From NCBI RefSeq assembly GCF_025290835.2, contig NZ_JAOCQD020000003.1, positions 310,001 through 374,000 on the forward strand: a stretch of 64,000 bases of DNA. The letters run 5' to 3'. A program made the position numbers and the translations under genes. Of the stretch, positions 26,367 to 35,880 are shown piece after piece; within the stretch, counting starts at the first letter, position 1, and each line of letters begins with the position of its first letter. The notes beneath the pieces were generated by a model that saw only the letters and a list, made by a program, of their open reading frames with translations, had not been told where the DNA came from and searched no databases. Source of the stretch: Aquabacterium sp. OR-4. Its GTDB lineage: Bacteria > Pseudomonadota > Gammaproteobacteria > Burkholderiales > Burkholderiaceae_C.

Positions 26367-26370
<4 letters not shown>
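24187..26370 (-). CDS. Response regulator with REC-PAS-GGDEF-EAL
   Basis: A 727-residue cyclic-di-GMP signalling protein. Domains: REC (5-120, phosphoacceptor Asp in LVLMDVNMPRMDG), coiled linker, PAS (about 145-265), GGDEF (about 270-460) and EAL (about 470-715). The A-site is intact (GGDEF, 372-376) and the EAL domain has EALIRWQHP, DDFGTGYSS and VVAEGVET, so both synthesis and hydrolysis look possible. A 29-residue insertion lies directly before the A-site loop. Its ATG overlaps the stop of the hybrid kinase gene as ATGA, so it is probably the cognate output of that kinase. Cytoplasmic; no membrane segment. Confidence 0.93.
25261..25347 (-). other. 87-bp insertion between c-di-GMP I-site and GGDEF loop
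   Basis: Removing these codons leaves RGHDVVAR-LGGDEF, the exact canonical spacing of I-site RxxD, five residues, then GGDEF. The insert (residues 342-370) begins SGDT, contains a tandem RPAPLDL duplication and ends GGHTLAR, so an AR dipeptide occurs on both sides. It therefore looks like an in-frame insertion with a short target-side duplication. Confidence 0.7.
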
Positions 26371-29341
<2,971 letters not shown>

Positions 29342-29345
<4 letters not shown>

Positions 29346-29953
29346 GGCTGGTCTCCTGATGCTGCGCAGCACGGCGCGGTCACGGCCTGGGCGGGTGCCG
29401 CCGGCGCGGCCGGCAGCTGGAAGCTCACGAACTCGGCATTGCCCAGGTCCAGGCGCTGGGCGCGGCCTTCCAGCAGCGCCAGCACCCGGGCCACGCCCTT
29501 GCTGCCCACCACCAGCGGATGCGCCGCGCGGTGCGCGGCGATCGAGGCCACGGCCAGCGCGATGCGGGCCACGAAGTCGGCCTCGGCCTCGCCACCCGGC
29601 GGGGTCTGGCCCGACGCCAGCCAGGCCTGGGTCTCGGCGATCGGGCGCAGGTTCCAGTCACCCAGGCGGCGCTCGCCGAAGCCCGGCACCACCAGCATCG
29701 GCACGCCACCCAGCGCGGCGGCCAGGATGGCGGCGGTCTCGCGGGTGCGCTTCAGGTCGCTGCTGATCACCAGGCCCACGCGGGGGCGCAGCGCGCACAC
29801 CTGGGCGGCGGCGTCCAGCGCCTGCTGGCGGCCGGGCTCGGTGAGCGGCAGGTCGAGATCGCCGCCGCAGCGCAGGCCGGCGGCGTTGGCGGCCGTGGCG
29901 CCGTGCCGCACGAAGTACAGCGGCGGCATGCCTTGGGCAGGGGTGTACTGCAT
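29342..29953 (-). CDS. Histidine phosphatase family protein
   Basis: A 203-residue member of the phosphoglycerate-mutase-like histidine phosphatases. The phosphohistidine motif is FVRHGAT near residue 15, with SDLKRTRETA and FGERRLGDWN as the further active-site parts. The second catalytic His that normally occurs in a late GHG motif is replaced by VVGSKGVARVL (Ser-Lys-Gly), so activity may be altered. It is the first gene of a three-gene unit coupled by 4-bp overlaps to the hybrid kinase and the GGDEF-EAL protein, an unusual partner; a SixA-like phosphohistidine phosphatase role on the relay is conceivable but unproven. Confidence 0.85.
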
Positions 29954-30036
29954 GAGAAAACGCTTTCAGGCAGGAGCGACCGAGGGTCGGTGGTTGGCAC
30001 AAGCCGGCGCTGGCGGACGCCCGGTGCGGCAGGGCA

Positions 30037-31188
30037 TCAGCGCAGCGCGTTGAGCGGTGCAAACGGGATCGGGCTGCCCGGGTAGGCCTCGCGCAGCGGG
30101 GCGTGCAGCACGCTCCACTCGCCCTGCGGCCCGCCGTCGCCCTCGAGCCACCGCCGGATGAACCAGATGTGGTTGCGGTCGGCCAGCAGCGGCGCATGGC
30201 CGGTGTCGGGGATGTGCATCAGCGTGATCTGCCGGCGCCGCGACATGCGTGCGATGGTGGTGTCGAACAGCGCGTCCGACTGCATGCCGTGGATCAGCAT
30301 CACCGGGCAATCCACATGCTGCCACTCGCCCCACTGCAGCAGGCTGCGCTGGGCATCGCGGCGGTAGGCCTGCATGGCGCGCACGTCGTGGCGGTAGATG
30401 CGGCCGTTCTCCACGTCGCACCACTTGGTCTGGTGGAAGGTGAGGTTGAAGCGGATGTCCTCGCTCACCGGGCCGTCGTTCTTCTGCGAGGCCCCCACCT
30501 TGCGCAGCAGGTCCGACGGCTGGCGAAAGACATAGTGCCGGGCAATGGTGTCGGCGCGGCGGCGGCGGCGGCGCGCCGGGATGTGCGGGCCCACGTCGTT
30601 GAGGATCAGCCGCTCCACCAGGCCGGGATGCTTGGCCATCATCGCGATGGTGGCGCTGCCGCCCATCGACGAGCCCAGCACCGTGACCGGCCGGTCGCCC
30701 AGGTGGGCGATCATCTGGCGGATCTGCTCGGCATAGGTGGCCAGCGAGTAGTCGCCCTCGGCCGCCAGCCAGCCCGAGCGGCCGCGGCCCAGCCAGTCCA
30801 TGCACACCACGCGCCAGCGGTCGCTCAGATCGCTGGCCAGGTAGCTGAAGCGCATGGCCACGTTGGCCACGCCGCCGCAGCACAGCAGCACCGGCGCATC
30901 GGCCGGGCCCCAGGCGGTGTAGGCCACGTTCACCGGGTAGGGCTTGCGCAGCCGCCGCGGCGTGGCCGGCTGCAGCTTGACCGGATGCACATATTCGAAC
31001 TGCTCGAGCGCGAACTGGCCATGGAAGCGGCCGACCACCCGGCTGGCCAGCGCCATGTAGTCGTTCCAGTCCGACAGCTCGCGGGCACGCTGGCGCACCG
31101 GCGGCTCCCAGGCCACGTCGATCAGCTCGCCGGGCACGGTGTCGCCGGCGCTGTCATCGCGCGGAACAATGGAGAACGCGTGTTTCAT
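30037..31188 (-). CDS. Alpha/beta hydrolase
   Basis: A 383-residue alpha/beta-fold hydrolase. Features: CCGGVANVAMRFSYLASDLS with the oxyanion region, VVCMDWLGRGRSGW, the nucleophile elbow GSSMGG in VTVLGSSMGGSATIAMMA, Asp candidates in LIHGMQSDALFD and His in IPDTGHAPLLADRNH. An arginine run (ARRRRRRADT) follows the elbow. The N-terminal 90 residues are an extension without a clear domain. No signal peptide. It lies 83 bp upstream of the histidine phosphatase on the same strand and may be part of that transcription unit. Substrate unknown. Confidence 0.83.
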   Translation of the reverse strand: MKHAFSIVPRDDSAGDTVPGELIDVAWEPPVRQRARELSDWNDYMALASRVVGRFHGQFALEQFEYVHPVKLQPATPRRLRKPYPVNVAYTAWGPADAPVLLCCGGVANVAMRFSYLASDLSDRWRVVCMDWLGRGRSGWLAAEGDYSLATYAEQIRQMIAHLGDRPVTVLGSSMGGSATIAMMAKHPGLVERLILNDVGPHIPARRRRRRADTIARHYVFRQPSDLLRKVGASQKNDGPVSEDIRFNLTFHQTKWCDVENGRIYRHDVRAMQAYRRDAQRSLLQWGEWQHVDCPVMLIHGMQSDALFDTTIARMSRRRQITLMHIPDTGHAPLLADRNHIWFIRRWLEGDGGPQGEWSVLHAPLREAYPGSPIPFAPLNALR

Positions 31189-31632: not shown

Positions 31633-32400
31633 ATGGAATCAACCCAACGCCGGATGTTCGTGGTGGCTGTGCTGGTCTGCGGCTTTGCCGTCGGCATGGC
31701 CGGGCTGCTGAACTTCTTCAAGTACCGCAGCACGGCGCTGAACATCGTCAAGGAGCGCCTGCTGGTCACCGGCCGCAGCGTGGAGAACAGCGTCAACTCC
31801 TCGCTGGCGCTGGGCATGCAGTTCGGCGACATCGGCACGCTGCAGGCCACGCTGGAGCGCGAACGCGCCACCGACGACCTGATCGAGGGCATCGACGTGT
31901 TCGACACCGATGGCCGCATGCTCTACAGCACCGACCGCCTGCGGGCCAACCGGCCGGTGCCCGCCGCCTGGCTGCGCACTGCGCGCAAGTCGGGCGCGGT
32001 GGACTGGTTTGTCGACGATGACCGCGCCGCCGCGGCCGGCATGTCGATCGAGAACTCCTTCGGCCTGACGCTGGGCTATCTGGCGGTGCGCTTCGACGCC
32101 GACCGCGTGCGCGACGGCGCCTGGTCGGTGGGCCGCGACATCGCGCTGGCCTCGCTGGGCGTGTTTGTGGTGGCCGCCGCGCTGGCCTCGGCGCTGCTGA
32201 TGCGGGTGATGCGCGGCCTGGGCCGCGATGTCGAGGGTGTGGAGGCGGCACTGCGCTCGGGCGACGCCGGCCGGGCCTCGGCCAGTGCGGCGCGCGGGCA
32301 TTTCGGGCCGGCGCTGCGCAAGTTCTTCGACACCGTGCGCCACGCCGAAACCGAGATTGCCGACCTGCAGGCCCGCTTGCAGCGCGGGAGCCAGCCATGA
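31633..32400 (+). CDS. Two-TM membrane sensor protein
   Basis: A 255-residue protein not matched to a named family. Membrane segments lie at about 8-30 and 172-197, flanking a periplasmic domain of about 140 residues (LLVTGRSVENSVNSSLALGM, then IEGIDVFDTDGRMLYSTDRL), which reads like a PAS/Cache-type sensor. After the second segment comes a HAMP-like linker (MRGLGRDVEGVEAALRSGD) and a short helical tail (VRHAETEIADLQARLQ). There is no kinase or methyl-accepting part. It starts at ATG 31633 and overlaps the next gene by ATGA, so the two sensors are made together and may pair. Confidence 0.75.
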   Translation: MESTQRRMFVVAVLVCGFAVGMAGLLNFFKYRSTALNIVKERLLVTGRSVENSVNSSLALGMQFGDIGTLQATLERERATDDLIEGIDVFDTDGRMLYSTDRLRANRPVPAAWLRTARKSGAVDWFVDDDRAAAAGMSIENSFGLTLGYLAVRFDADRVRDGAWSVGRDIALASLGVFVVAAALASALLMRVMRGLGRDVEGVEAALRSGDAGRASASAARGHFGPALRKFFDTVRHAETEIADLQARLQRGSQP

Positions 32401-34499
32401 ACGCGACCTACCTGCGGCGCATCTACCTCAAGCTGGCCGGCGTGGTGACGCTGGTGGTGCTGCTGGCCCTGCTGGCCAATGCCGCACTCACCCAGCGCAC
32501 CTTCGAGCAGGCCCTGGCGCCCGAGGTGGCCAAGAAGGCCATGAGCGTGGGCGCCTCGATCCGCGCCCTGGTGCTCAAGGCGGCCGAGAACGGCATCGGC
32601 TTTGCCGAGCTGTATGGCGTGGAGCAGCGCTTTGCCGACGTCAAGAACGAGGCCCCCGAGGTGGCCTACCTGGCGCTGACCGATGCCAGCGGCCAGGTGC
32701 TGTACCAGCATGCCCGCGCGCCCGAGGGCGCCGAGCGCTACTTCAGCAGCCCGGCTGTGCTGCGCCTGCTGGCCGCGCCCGAGGGCAATTCGCCGCCGAT
32801 GCGCCTGGGCAACCAGTACATGGTGTCGCTGCCCATCGTGGGCCAGGACGGGCCGCTGGGCCTGCTGCACCTGGGCGTGGACGCGCGCTTCGTCAACGAT
32901 CTGGTGCTGGACATGCTGTTCGATGTGCTGGTGGTGCTGGTGGTCTCGCTGTTCTTCACGCTGGAGCTGCTGCACTTCATGGCCGGCGCACGCCTGGACG
33001 CATCGCTGAAGGCGCTGGGCGAGGCCTTCGAGCGCGGTGCGTCGGGCAACTTCCTGACCCGCCGCGACCGCCGCAACGAGCTGGCCTTTGGCGGCCTGCT
33101 GCGCCTGATGGACGCCACGCTGGAGCGCGTCAACGGCGCCTATGCCGCGCTGGGCCGTGCGGTGGACGCCGGCCGCCGCGTGCCGGCACACGAGCGCCAG
33201 CCCGGCCTGGCCAAGGCCCAGGCCGGCCTGCAGGCACTGGGCGAGCGCTACCGCTTCGGCACCGAGCCGCCCAGCAACCGGCTGGAAGAGGGCGACCTGG
33301 CCAAGATCCGCGCGCCGCTGTTCATGTTCATCCTGGCCGAGGAGCTCACGCGGCCCTTCCTGCCGGGCTATGTGAAAGAGCTGCTGGTGCCGGTGTCGTG
33401 GATCTCGCCGCAGATGATGGTGGGCCTGCCGATCGCGCTGTTCATGCTGATCGTGGCCATCGGCCAGCCCTTCTTCGGCGTGTACTGCGAGCGCGTGGGC
33501 CACCGCCGCACCATGATGCTGGGCGCCGGCATTGCCGCGGCCGGCTTCGTGGCCAGCGCCATGGCCCACAACGTGCTGGATCTGCTGCTGTGGCGCAGCC
33601 TGTGCGCGCTGGGCTACGGCCTGGTGTTCGTGGCCGGCCAGGCCTTCGTGCTCGACCACGCCACCTCGGCCAACCGGGCGCGCAGCTTTGCGCTGTTTGT
33701 CGGCGCGATCATGGCCGCCACGGTGTGCGGGCCGTCGATCGGCGGCATCCTGGCCGACAACGTGGGCACGCGCGCGTCCTTCGTGGTGGCCGCGGTGCTG
33801 GCGGCGGCCTCGATGATGGTGATCCGCCTGCTGCCCGACTCGCGCGAGGTGCCCAGCAACCGCGGCCCGGCGCGCCTGCCCAGGCTGGTGGACATTGCGG
33901 CCCTGGCCACCAATCGCCGCTTCATGACCGTCACCGGCCTGGCCGCGATGCCGGCCAAGATCCTGCTGACCGGCCTGTGCTTCTACCTGGTGCCGCTGTA
34001 TGTGCTGTCGATCGGCGACAGCCAGGCCATGGCCGGGCGCATCGTCATGATCTACGGCGTGGTGATGGTGGTGATGGCGCCGGTGACGGCCGCGCTGGCC
34101 AGCTCGCGCGATCGCATGAACTGGCTGGTGGGTGGCGGCCTGGTGCTGTCGGGCCTGGGCGGCACGCTGATGCTGGCCGGCCAGGACGTGGGCTGGGTGT
34201 TTGCCGCCGTGATCCTGGTGGGCCTGGGCCAGTCGCTGTCGATCTCGGCGCAAAGCGCGCTGGTCACCGAGAACTGCGAGGCCGAGATCGAGCGCCTGGG
34301 CGACGGCACCGTGTACGGCGTCTACCGCCTGCTCGAACGCCTGGGCAATGCGCTGGGCCCGCTGATCGCCGCCGCGCTGGTCTCCAGCATCGGCTTCCGC
34401 CACAGCTTCGTGGCCATCGGTGCCGGCGTGCTGCTGTGCGGCCTGGTGTTTCTGGTGGCCACCCGCCGCAGCCCGCAGCCGCAGCTGGTGCCGGCCTGA
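32397..34499 (+). CDS. Sensor domain fused to MFS transporter
   Basis: A 700-residue fusion. Residues 1-200 repeat the plan of the upstream protein: membrane segment 11-31, a periplasmic region (VAYLALTDASGQVLYQHARA ... NQYMVSLPIVGQDGPLGLLHLGV, Cache-like) and membrane segment about 172-195. A HAMP-like linker (205-255) and a polar stretch follow. From about 308 to the end is a complete major facilitator transporter of about 12 segments with motif A as GVYCERVGHRRTM and AFVLDHATSANRARSFALFVG. A transporter carrying its own extracytoplasmic sensor is unusual. Direction and substrate are unknown. The partner genes are a separate sensor and a periplasmic binding protein. Confidence 0.85.
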   Translation: MNATYLRRIYLKLAGVVTLVVLLALLANAALTQRTFEQALAPEVAKKAMSVGASIRALVLKAAENGIGFAELYGVEQRFADVKNEAPEVAYLALTDASGQVLYQHARAPEGAERYFSSPAVLRLLAAPEGNSPPMRLGNQYMVSLPIVGQDGPLGLLHLGVDARFVNDLVLDMLFDVLVVLVVSLFFTLELLHFMAGARLDASLKALGEAFERGASGNFLTRRDRRNELAFGGLLRLMDATLERVNGAYAALGRAVDAGRRVPAHERQPGLAKAQAGLQALGERYRFGTEPPSNRLEEGDLAKIRAPLFMFILAEELTRPFLPGYVKELLVPVSWISPQMMVGLPIALFMLIVAIGQPFFGVYCERVGHRRTMMLGAGIAAAGFVASAMAHNVLDLLLWRSLCALGYGLVFVAGQAFVLDHATSANRARSFALFVGAIMAATVCGPSIGGILADNVGTRASFVVAAVLAAASMMVIRLLPDSREVPSNRGPARLPRLVDIAALATNRRFMTVTGLAAMPAKILLTGLCFYLVPLYVLSIGDSQAMAGRIVMIYGVVMVVMAPVTAALASSRDRMNWLVGGGLVLSGLGGTLMLAGQDVGWVFAAVILVGLGQSLSISAQSALVTENCEAEIERLGDGTVYGVYRLLERLGNALGPLIAAALVSSIGFRHSFVAIGAGVLLCGLVFLVATRRSPQPQLVPA

Positions 34500-34524
34500 C
34501 CGTCACCCGATCAAGGAGTTTTTC

Positions 34525-35571
34525 GTGTCGCTCAACAACACCCGCCGCCAATGGCTGACCACCGCGGCCGGCAGCGCCGGCGCGCTGGCCCTGCCGGCCT
34601 GGGCCAAGCCGGCCGCCAACCAGGCGCGGCCCTTGCGCATCTACGCCATCACCTTTCGCGGCATGACCGACGTGGAAAAGGGCTTCGAAGACTACTTCGC
34701 CACGCGCAAGGTGCCGGTCGACATCACCTACCGCGACCTCAACCGCGAGGCCGGCCGCATGCCGGGCTTTCTGGACGAGATCCGCAGCACCCGGCCCGAC
34801 CTGGTGTACGCCTGGGGCACCTCGGTCACGCTGGGCGTGGTGGGGCCTTTCGACGCACCCGCGCGCGGGTCGTTCATCCACGACATCCCGGTGGTGTTCA
34901 CGCTGGTGGCCGCGCCGGTGCTGGCCAAGATCGTGGCCGACACCAAGCTGCCGGGGCGCAACGTCACCGGCGTCACCCATGTGGCGCCCACCGAGGCGCA
35001 GATCCGCGCGATGGCCGCGTACCGGCCGTTCCAGACCCTGGGCGTGCTGTACACGCCCACCGAGAAGAACTCGGTGGTGGTGCTGGAAGAAATCCGCCGC
35101 CTGGGCCGCGAGCGCGGCTTCCACACGGTGGAGCGCACCTTCCGGCTCGACGCGGGCCGCAAGCCCACGCCCGATGGCGCAGCCGAGCTGGTGCACGAGC
35201 TCAAGGAGGCCGGCGCGCAATGGCTGTACCTGCCGCCCGACAGCTTTCTGGGCACGCTGGCCGAGGGGGTGATCATCCCCGCGGCCATGGAGGCCGGCCT
35301 GCCCACCTTTGCCTCCACCGAGCAGCTGATGCAGGCTGGTGCCTTGTCGGGCCTGGTCAGCCGCTACTACAACGTGGGCCAGTTCACCGCCTACAAGGCC
35401 GAGCAGATCCTGGTGGGCAAGCAGTCGGCCGGCAGCGTGCCGGTGGAAACGCTCAAGCGCTTCTCGTACCAGATCCGCATGCCCGCCGCCCGCCGCCTGA
35501 AGCTGCCACCGCCGCTGCCGATGATGGCCTACGCCGAGCTGATCGGGTCGGACACGATCGTTTCGCAGTAG
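34525..35571 (+). CDS. ABC-type substrate-binding protein (PF04392/DUF534 family)
   Basis: A 348-residue periplasmic binding protein of the ABC_sub_bind (PF04392) family. GTG 34525 is chosen for AAGGAG at 34513-34518 and for the leader VSLNNTRRQWLTTAAGSAGA, a Tat-like twin-arginine signal with cleavage after AWA. Typical features are LRIYAITFRGMTDVEKGFED, DLVYAWGTSVTLGVVG and GVLYTPTEKNSVVVLEEIRR. No ABC permease or ATPase is nearby; it follows the sensor-MFS gene by 25 nt. It may present a ligand to the two Cache-like sensors, rather than feed an ABC pump; this is inference. Confidence 0.87.
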   Translation: MSLNNTRRQWLTTAAGSAGALALPAWAKPAANQARPLRIYAITFRGMTDVEKGFEDYFATRKVPVDITYRDLNREAGRMPGFLDEIRSTRPDLVYAWGTSVTLGVVGPFDAPARGSFIHDIPVVFTLVAAPVLAKIVADTKLPGRNVTGVTHVAPTEAQIRAMAAYRPFQTLGVLYTPTEKNSVVVLEEIRRLGRERGFHTVERTFRLDAGRKPTPDGAAELVHELKEAGAQWLYLPPDSFLGTLAEGVIIPAAMEAGLPTFASTEQLMQAGALSGLVSRYYNVGQFTAYKAEQILVGKQSAGSVPVETLKRFSYQIRMPAARRLKLPPPLPMMAYAELIGSDTIVSQ

Positions 35572-35573
35572 CT

Positions 35574-35880
35574 GGGGCACCCGGCCTCGCGGGTACGCGA
35601 GACCACCCGCCGGGCGGGTTGGCGGGCCGGCTTGGGAGCGGCCCGGCGCTCGGCCCGCTGGGCACCCGGCCTTGCGGGACCGCAGGGCCACCCGCCGGGC
35701 GGGTACAGGCCCGCTTAGGAGCGGCCCGGCGCTCGGCCCGCTGGGCACCCGGCCCTGCTGAATCGCAGGTCCACCCGCCGGGCGGGTACGGGCCGGCTTG
35801 GGAGCGGCCCGGCGCTCGGCCCGCTGGGCACCCGGACCTGCGGAACCGCAGGGCTGCCCGCCCAGCACAGGCGCGGGCCG
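35574..35880. repeat. 83-bp tandem repeat array
   Basis: About 3.6 direct copies of an 83-85-bp unit between two convergent genes. Each starts GGGCACCCGG, has a CGCAGG-type small inverted repeat, the palindrome CCACCCGCCGGGCGGGT, then GAGCGGCCCGGCGCTCGGCC. Unit starts are near 35575, 35660, 35743 and 35826. Copies differ at a few sites, mostly in the loop next to CACCCGG. No spacer structure as in CRISPR. The gap carries no gene. Confidence 0.9.

Follow-up and report, generated by a model that had tools for sequence, protein, structure and literature searches.

A three-gene module joining a PF04392 binding protein to a fused sensor-MFS protein in Aquabacterium and other proteobacteria

The locus and its recurrence

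This analysis concerns three adjacent genes, termed A, B and C, in a 64,000-nucleotide stretch of Aquabacterium sp. OR-4 (contig NZ_JAOCQD020000003.1, positions 310,001-374,000), hereafter the window, which is numbered from its first letter. All three are on the forward strand. Gene A (31633..32400) encodes a 255-residue sensor with two transmembrane (TM) helices, identified from its open reading frame, hydropathy, Pfam and an AlphaFold2 model. Gene B (32397..34499) encodes 700 residues in which a Cache-like sensor is fused to a transporter of the major facilitator superfamily (MFS), as judged from the reading frame, Pfam, hydropathy and relatives, while gene C (34525..35571) encodes a 348-residue substrate-binding protein (SBP) of family PF04392 with a GTG start and a twin-arginine-like leader (reading frame and Pfam). 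The TGA of A and the ATG of B are contained within ATGA, and a ribosome-binding-like AAGGAG (34513..34518, forward strand) precedes the GTG of C; a promoter scan found no promoter. An earlier inspection of the letters alone (the sequence-only reading) had proposed three tightly packed genes at 31633..35571, the first pair overlapping by ATGA, and these coordinates are correct.

The search for relatives began with B itself and continued with profiles that cover its sensor and the first helices of its MFS part. Genes in the fetched regions were called with our own scripts, and 'in reach' below means inside the fetched stretch. Full-profile matches were obtained in nine of the 398 genomes of a phylum sample, all at E-values of 4.1e-49 or better (the next match stood at 2.5e-24). 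Four of the 369 genomes of a class sample matched, the window's own genome being counted in both samples, as did 12 of 190 genomes of a second class at E up to 1e-20, ten of these 12 extending to the MFS end of the profile. Regions were fetched from 22 of the 44 matching genomes, besides the window's own, in a family sample and, in the first phylum sample, from ten of 64 (genome G244 occurs in both), the rest being weak or partial-profile matches. This gave 49 sensor-MFS loci: a first 32 (29 of 34 fetched regions plus L001, L002 and the window), a further 15 from 16 regions (L161, without an MFS match, was left out) and two on plasmids of Azospirillum brasilense (Alphaproteobacteria) and Vibrio sp. 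THAF190c (Gammaproteobacteria). The five regions outside the first 32 are the kinase loci L094-L097 and L102, which is cut inside B with its SBP still visible.

A-B-C is a real and widespread module, hosted by at least two classes of proteobacteria. Of the 49 loci, 48 contain an SBP (32/32, 14/15 and 2/2), and these SBPs belong to a single clade; the exception is L144, where the contig ends 371 bases past B. The SBP lies directly next to the fusion in 45 loci; L074 and L080 have one gene between, and the order in L092 is SBP, A, B. The A sensor accompanies B in 47 loci, 30 having a separate A gene and 17 an A-B fusion, with two loci undecidable at contig ends (separate and fused, respectively: 17 and 15 in the first 32; 11 and two, plus both contig-end cases, in the next 15; two and none on the plasmids). 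In all 15 A-B-MFS chains tested, the beginning of the chain is matched by a profile built from separate A proteins, at 7.8e-11 or better. The three genes are therefore kept together in other genomes, as the sequence-only reading had proposed to check. Its claim of an in-frame fusion is likewise upheld. The sensor-MFS junction is a single open frame in 49/49 loci, partly by construction because the loci were selected with profiles that span the sensor and the first MFS helices, so that unfused versions would be missed; the neighbouring SBP and A were not selected in this way. A frameshift or assembly merge of B was ruled out, as it is fused in every relative examined, including L001 (69% identity) and L002 (33%).

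The SBP had further been described as lacking an ATP-binding cassette (ABC) partner, which holds for the ATPase: the genome has 123 PF00005 matches at E up to 1e-15, all of them outside the window, and among 53 loci a single one has an ABC ATPase, 3.4 kb beyond its SBP (Pfam recognises one in L093); permeases were not searched for. The ATPase searches of genome, window and 53 loci rule out a missing ABC partner for C. Membership of the TRAP or TTT transporters was also rejected, A and B having no such Pfam match at E up to 1. As a separate observation, three frames of 810, 810 and 1066 amino acids match only the linker-to-MFS end of the B profile (A7; G043:C115:7539-7871, G098:C5:238726-239061 and G334:C15:19324-19593) and are perhaps other fused MFS proteins.

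Sensors, carrier and binding protein

Protein A has two hydrophobic segments flanking a domain of about 140 residues (hydropathy scan). This domain, at residues ~30-169 by model and alignment ranges (31720..32139, forward strand), belongs to a model with a mean predicted local distance difference test (pLDDT) score of 74 that matches WalK, KinD, DcuS and CitA (Foldseek, VIA-align), and A is thus predicted to form one extracytoplasmic Cache/PAS-like fold between two TM helices. In B, the first TM helix, Cache-like domain and second TM helix occupy residues 1-196 (32397..32984, forward strand), as placed by the order of elements in the model and a match of the A profile (4.6e-7). The order of secondary-structure elements is that of A, in a model of low confidence (blocks at residues 41-170 with pLDDT 54-77). 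Pfam and hydropathy revealed no signalling output domain in either protein, A ending after its second helix in a tail of ~65 residues without a Pfam match and B in the MFS domain.

The sensors had initially been called Cache/HAMP-like. The Cache half of this description is retained as a predicted fold for A and, at low confidence, as the matching element order of B; the HAMP half has fared less well, since Pfam finds HAMP in neither window sensor and in one of 32 B proteins (5e-4). The Pfam scan that had been suggested for the N-terminal part of the fusion gave, for both sensors, only sub-threshold matches to dCache_1 (11.8 bits against a gathering score of 45 for each; E 0.17 and 0.18), and the Cache assignment comes from the model of A. 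Among the 32 B relatives, four match sCache_3_2 at E up to 0.01 (best 1.2e-4). Against PDB sequences the B profile gave five matches (E 0.0012-0.0094), including the sensory rhodopsin II transducer, and the A profile (A8) none, with no Cache relative recovered by either.

The B sensor is homologous to the sensors of histidine kinases that adjoin PF04392 SBPs in three loci (L095:5761-9728, L096:6178-9242 and L097:4100-8031). The kinases of L095 and L096 are hybrid kinases with sCache_3_2 (Pfam); for L097 the homology of the sensor was detected by profile only. In an alignment of 48 fusions (L160, which is cut, was excluded and L144 included), the position of Glu190 in the second sensor helix of B (codon 32964..32966, forward strand) is glutamate in 47, with glutamine in L144; glutamate is found there in none of four homologous kinases and in four of ten B2 proteins, the duplicated B sensors described below.

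The MFS part of B (residues 305-700; 33309..34496, forward strand), delimited by Pfam, alignment and nearest solved relatives, matches MFS_1 over residues 309-627 with 155.8 bits against a gathering score of 33.4 (E 1.8e-45). The hydropathy scan shows two hydrophobic segments in the sensor and 11 in the MFS part, and a twelfth, charge-bearing MFS helix would lie at residues ~309-327, to judge by the alignment and by the match to MFS_1; of the 'full 12-TM MFS' first proposed, the family and 11 helices are thus seen directly. All 48 fusions retain R305, an acid in TM1, P519, E647 and R648, and 47 retain R400 and R644; from these conserved charged positions the carrier looks alive and coupled. 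Motif C (GPxxGG), the antiporter motif in TM5, reads GPSIGG in the window, with G445 in 47, P446 in 33 and G450 in 44 of the 48 fusions. The closest solved sequences are VAChT (2.5e-11) and NorA (2.9e-11), followed by the VMATs, all of them H+ antiporters of amines or drugs. Foldseek with the B model returned at least 50 MFS carriers, NorA first, with target TM-scores of 0.23-0.32 among the matches listed; because this model is poor (pLDDT 44, low TM-scores), kinship was judged from the sequence match, which makes an amine/drug (DHA1) H+ antiporter the most likely identity of the MFS part.

Protein C matches PF04392 with 79.6 bits against a gathering score of 25.9 (E 3.1e-22) and is the sole match to this family in the 6.6-Mb genome. 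A twin-arginine-like leader is present in 17 of 32 SBPs, including C. The family includes TrpX, the tryptophan-binding protein of an ABC importer (3lft; PMC9382623), for which the available text names T108, A127, T129, D152 and N233 as ligand residues (PMC9382623). C falls below the NCBIfam TrpX equivalog cut-off (93.1 bits against 390) and has L, A, H and S at A127, T129, D152 and N233, T108 not being placed with certainty. Aspartate is kept at the D152 position in none of 48 MFS-linked SBPs (0/32 and 0/16): the first 32 have His (29), Asn (2) or Ile (1), and in the later 16 the residue varies more (His 8, Asn 4, Tyr 2, Phe 2). For comparison, 30 PF04392 loci were taken, regardless of fusion, from a search of 190 genomes (48 matched); an ABC ATPase is in reach in 16 of these loci, and each of the 16 proteins carries A-D-N at A127, D152 and N233. 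In a tree of 84 PF04392 proteins all 48 MFS-linked SBPs fall on one branch (100/100), separate from the ABC-linked proteins; it also holds L222, labelled 'other', which is the same gene as L090_C. The ABC-labelled branch (100/99) comprises these 16 proteins, three PDB chains, and two more proteins that share the A-D-N residues but have no ATPase in reach. With these ligand-site residues lost, the name TrpX should not be transferred to C, and a TrpX-like amino-acid ligand for C was ruled out; on the sequence evidence, the ligand of this dedicated SBP clade is unlikely to be tryptophan. In the SBPs of the kinase loci L095, L096 and L097 the TrpX aspartate is replaced by Tyr (3/3).

Many relatives carry a second sensor pair, A'/B', ahead of a signalling enzyme, which in most cases is a SpoIIE phosphatase. 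A SpoIIE-type phosphatase gene is in reach in 16 of the first 32 loci (one cut by the locus end) and in reach of none of the other 16. Six SpoIIE-type proteins were scanned, five from these loci and one from L152; all contain PF07228 and three contain HAMP. Both A' and B' were recognised ahead of the SpoIIE gene in 11 of the 16 (L079-L081, L083-L088, L091 and L098). Ten B' (B2) proteins were collected, five of 267-394 residues and five of 629-666 residues with 11-13 hydrophobic segments, and none of the ten matches the MFS profile. A B2 copy beside SpoIIE without a recognisable MFS implies that the enzyme arm can do without one. In L154 a dCache-HAMP-guanylate-cyclase protein takes the place of the SpoIIE enzyme, L075 and L076 have a divergent Ser/Thr kinase with dCache and HAMP, and L074 has an anti-sigma-type ATPase.

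A search of 55 loci found members of one related GNAT acetyltransferase family in 20, each of them one of the 49 sensor-MFS loci; 14 of the 20 were used to build the profile and six are independent. An alanine racemase-like gene is found in five loci. In L079 (6155-7965), and also in L077, L078, L080 and L081, GNAT and alanine racemase-like genes lie between the SBP and the A'/B' arm, which hints at an amine or amino-acid-like ligand in this branch. Two further observations concern the neighbours of the module. A secretin gene lies next to or near it at L083:5184-7076, L098:11681-13573 and L099:2883-5588, recognised by Pfam in L083 and L099 and by 93.7% identity to L083 in L098, and a formyltransferase-like gene (PF00551) stands on the opposite strand beside the SpoIIE arm of L091 (15281-16111).

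Candidate mechanism and comparison with known systems

These features suggest that A-B-C may encode a transporter controlled by a binding-protein receptor, in which the loaded SBP docks on A and B and thereby gates the fused MFS, a proposal whose truth we regard as evenly balanced. It draws on the genes themselves, the predicted fold of A, the co-occurrence, the single SBP clade and the conserved charges. C would be exported to the periplasm and bind a small ligand; A and B would pair in the membrane, and loaded C would then dock on their Cache domains. A shift of the second helix of B, which carries Glu190, could be relayed through the linker into the MFS, which would be opened or closed. Most likely the carrier would export an amine-bearing compound akin to the ligand, given the probable nature of the MFS as an amine/drug H+ antiporter. 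In relatives the second A'/B' pair would read the same SBP on behalf of an enzyme, the SpoIIE phosphatase or the cyclase, so that a single ligand would control transport and signalling alike. Synteny, the natural A-B-MFS chains, the dedicated SBP clade and the homologous sensors of PF04392-paired kinases support the view that the SBP serves the sensors and that these in turn serve the transporter. The transport module suggested by the sequence-only reading, which would be gated by periplasmic ligand sensing with delivery by the SBP, is thus supported in part; the sister arms with SpoIIE or cyclase, the GNAT partner and the loss of the TrpX ligand site had escaped it. Switching of the carrier by the loaded SBP is the simplest account of a dedicated SBP, two Cache-like sensors and a live-looking carrier.

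Several points weigh against this interpretation. Motif A is often degenerate in the MFS domains of SpoIIE-linked loci, and the model of B was made from three sequences and has a whole-model pLDDT of only 44. The window genome yielded no large SpoIIE protein, PF07228 having a single weak match there, in a 348-residue frame, and the window no member of the GNAT family, which means that the hints of an amine and of signalling stem from relatives. NCBIfam matches of the MFS, all below cut-off, are mostly to efflux families and include symporters too. The co-occurrence itself fits uptake or sensing as well as it does export; the relatives of the MFS and the GNAT partner favour an amine-bearing compound that is exported, but uptake with delivery by the SBP, or pure sensing, may apply instead.

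SBP-dependent uptake, in which C captures a substrate and docks on a platform formed by A and B, and the MFS takes up the captured substrate in parallel to TRAP and TTT systems, seems unlikely. It would explain why SBP and MFS are equally constant and why the SBP has a clade of its own, and it suits both the standing of C as the genome's one PF04392 match and the 16 of 32 loci with no SpoIIE in reach, where transport alone may be the purpose. The nearest solved relatives of the carrier, however, are exporters or antiporters, the NCBIfam matches lean to efflux despite their sub-threshold scores and partial symporter content, motif C is largely preserved, and SBP-dependent transporters are not known to need Cache sensors.

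An MFS acting mainly as a sensor or scaffold, with SBP and MFS reporting outside and inside ligand to SpoIIE, cyclase or kinase and with little transport, is similarly improbable. Such a transceptor would be in keeping with the paralogous A'/B'/enzyme arms, with the five of ten B2 proteins that retain 11-13 hydrophobic segments without an MFS match, and with the hybrid kinase that is syntenic in the window's clade. Yet the charged transporter positions are kept in 47-48 of 48 fusions, half of the first 32 loci have no SpoIIE in reach and the window genome lacks a large SpoIIE protein; moreover, an MFS that is intact in B and absent or decayed in B2 beside SpoIIE argues that it is there to transport. 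That the genes are independent and merely held together by regulation, the SBP and sensors acting elsewhere and the MFS working alone, is very unlikely: the SBP and A persist as neighbours across classes, A-B-MFS chains occur naturally and Glu190 is conserved in the sensor helix that adjoins the MFS.

Among the papers listed in searches of the open-access literature, we found no account of an SBP combined with a sensor pair and a sensor-MFS fusion, in agreement with the initial impression that no characterised system has this composition. The closest parallel is with SBP-stimulated receptors, an established mechanism exemplified by BctC-BctE, where a periplasmic SBP likewise meets a membrane protein with an extracytoplasmic sensor domain (PMC9602780). 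The PF04392-paired kinases of L095-L097, with sensors homologous to that of B, extend the likeness, which rests for A-B-C on synteny and homology. The receptors named in the available text of that review are chemoreceptors, sensor kinases, c-di-GMP enzymes and Ser/Thr kinases, whereas A-B-C would have a transporter as output and a two-part sensor (PMC9602780). The SBP-using transporters named there are ABC, TRAP and TTT (PMC9602780), and they share with A-B-C a periplasmic SBP encoded with an inner-membrane transporter; in A-B-C this is an MFS with a sensor of its own, there is no ABC ATPase in the window, and A and B are not TRAP or TTT subunits. TrpX is of the same Pfam family as C but differs in clade and ligand site, the ABC-linked proteins having A-D-N in 16/16 cases and the MFS-linked ones Asp in 0/48.

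The predicted fold of A resembles that of Cache-domain receptors (PMC4822843). According to the available part of that survey, Cache domains are found only in proteins with signalling outputs, to which a table key adds ion channels or their subunits, and neither 'MFS' nor 'transport' occurs in its main text; its set was, however, built from proteins with signalling outputs, so that a fusion to a carrier would have escaped it (PMC4822843). A sensory domain is fused to an MFS transporter in the SPX-MFS proteins of plants (VPT1; PMC10392026, available text). SPX is unrelated to the sensor of B, which would face the periplasm and is tied to an SBP. The SPX domain is cytosolic. In the Blt/BltD pair of Bacillus, an MFS exporter of the NorA group adjoins a GNAT acetyltransferase, as an MFS does in 20 sensor-MFS loci; the pair is not known to include an SBP or sensors.

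We know of no Cache sensor with a carrier as its output, and if the proposal is true these sensors would gain a new kind of output. An MFS carrier switched by a ligand-loaded SBP through a fused Cache receptor, with a duplicated arm signalling to a phosphatase or cyclase, would be a further class of SBP-linked transport, a conclusion about as likely to hold as to fail. Since SBP-stimulated receptors are already known, it is proof of gating that would earn A-B-C a class of its own. The coordination of transport with signalling by SBPs is described, in the available text, as largely unexplored (PMC9602780), and the union of receptor and carrier in one protein would make it testable in a three-gene system, for a ligand that the dedicated SBP clade marks as unlikely to be tryptophan.

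Surroundings of the module

Three genes on the reverse strand are divergent from A-B-C and together span 26367-31188: an alpha/beta hydrolase (30037..31188; Pfam), a histidine phosphatase (29342..29953; from the Pfam match of its L100 homologue) and a hybrid histidine kinase of PAS-HisKA-HATPase-REC-REC-Hpt architecture (26367..29372; Pfam). All three hold the same position in each of the seven close relatives of the window's clade that were compared. Immediately downstream of C, at 35575-35862, lies a GC-rich 83-bp tandem repeat of 3.4 copies with 87% matches.

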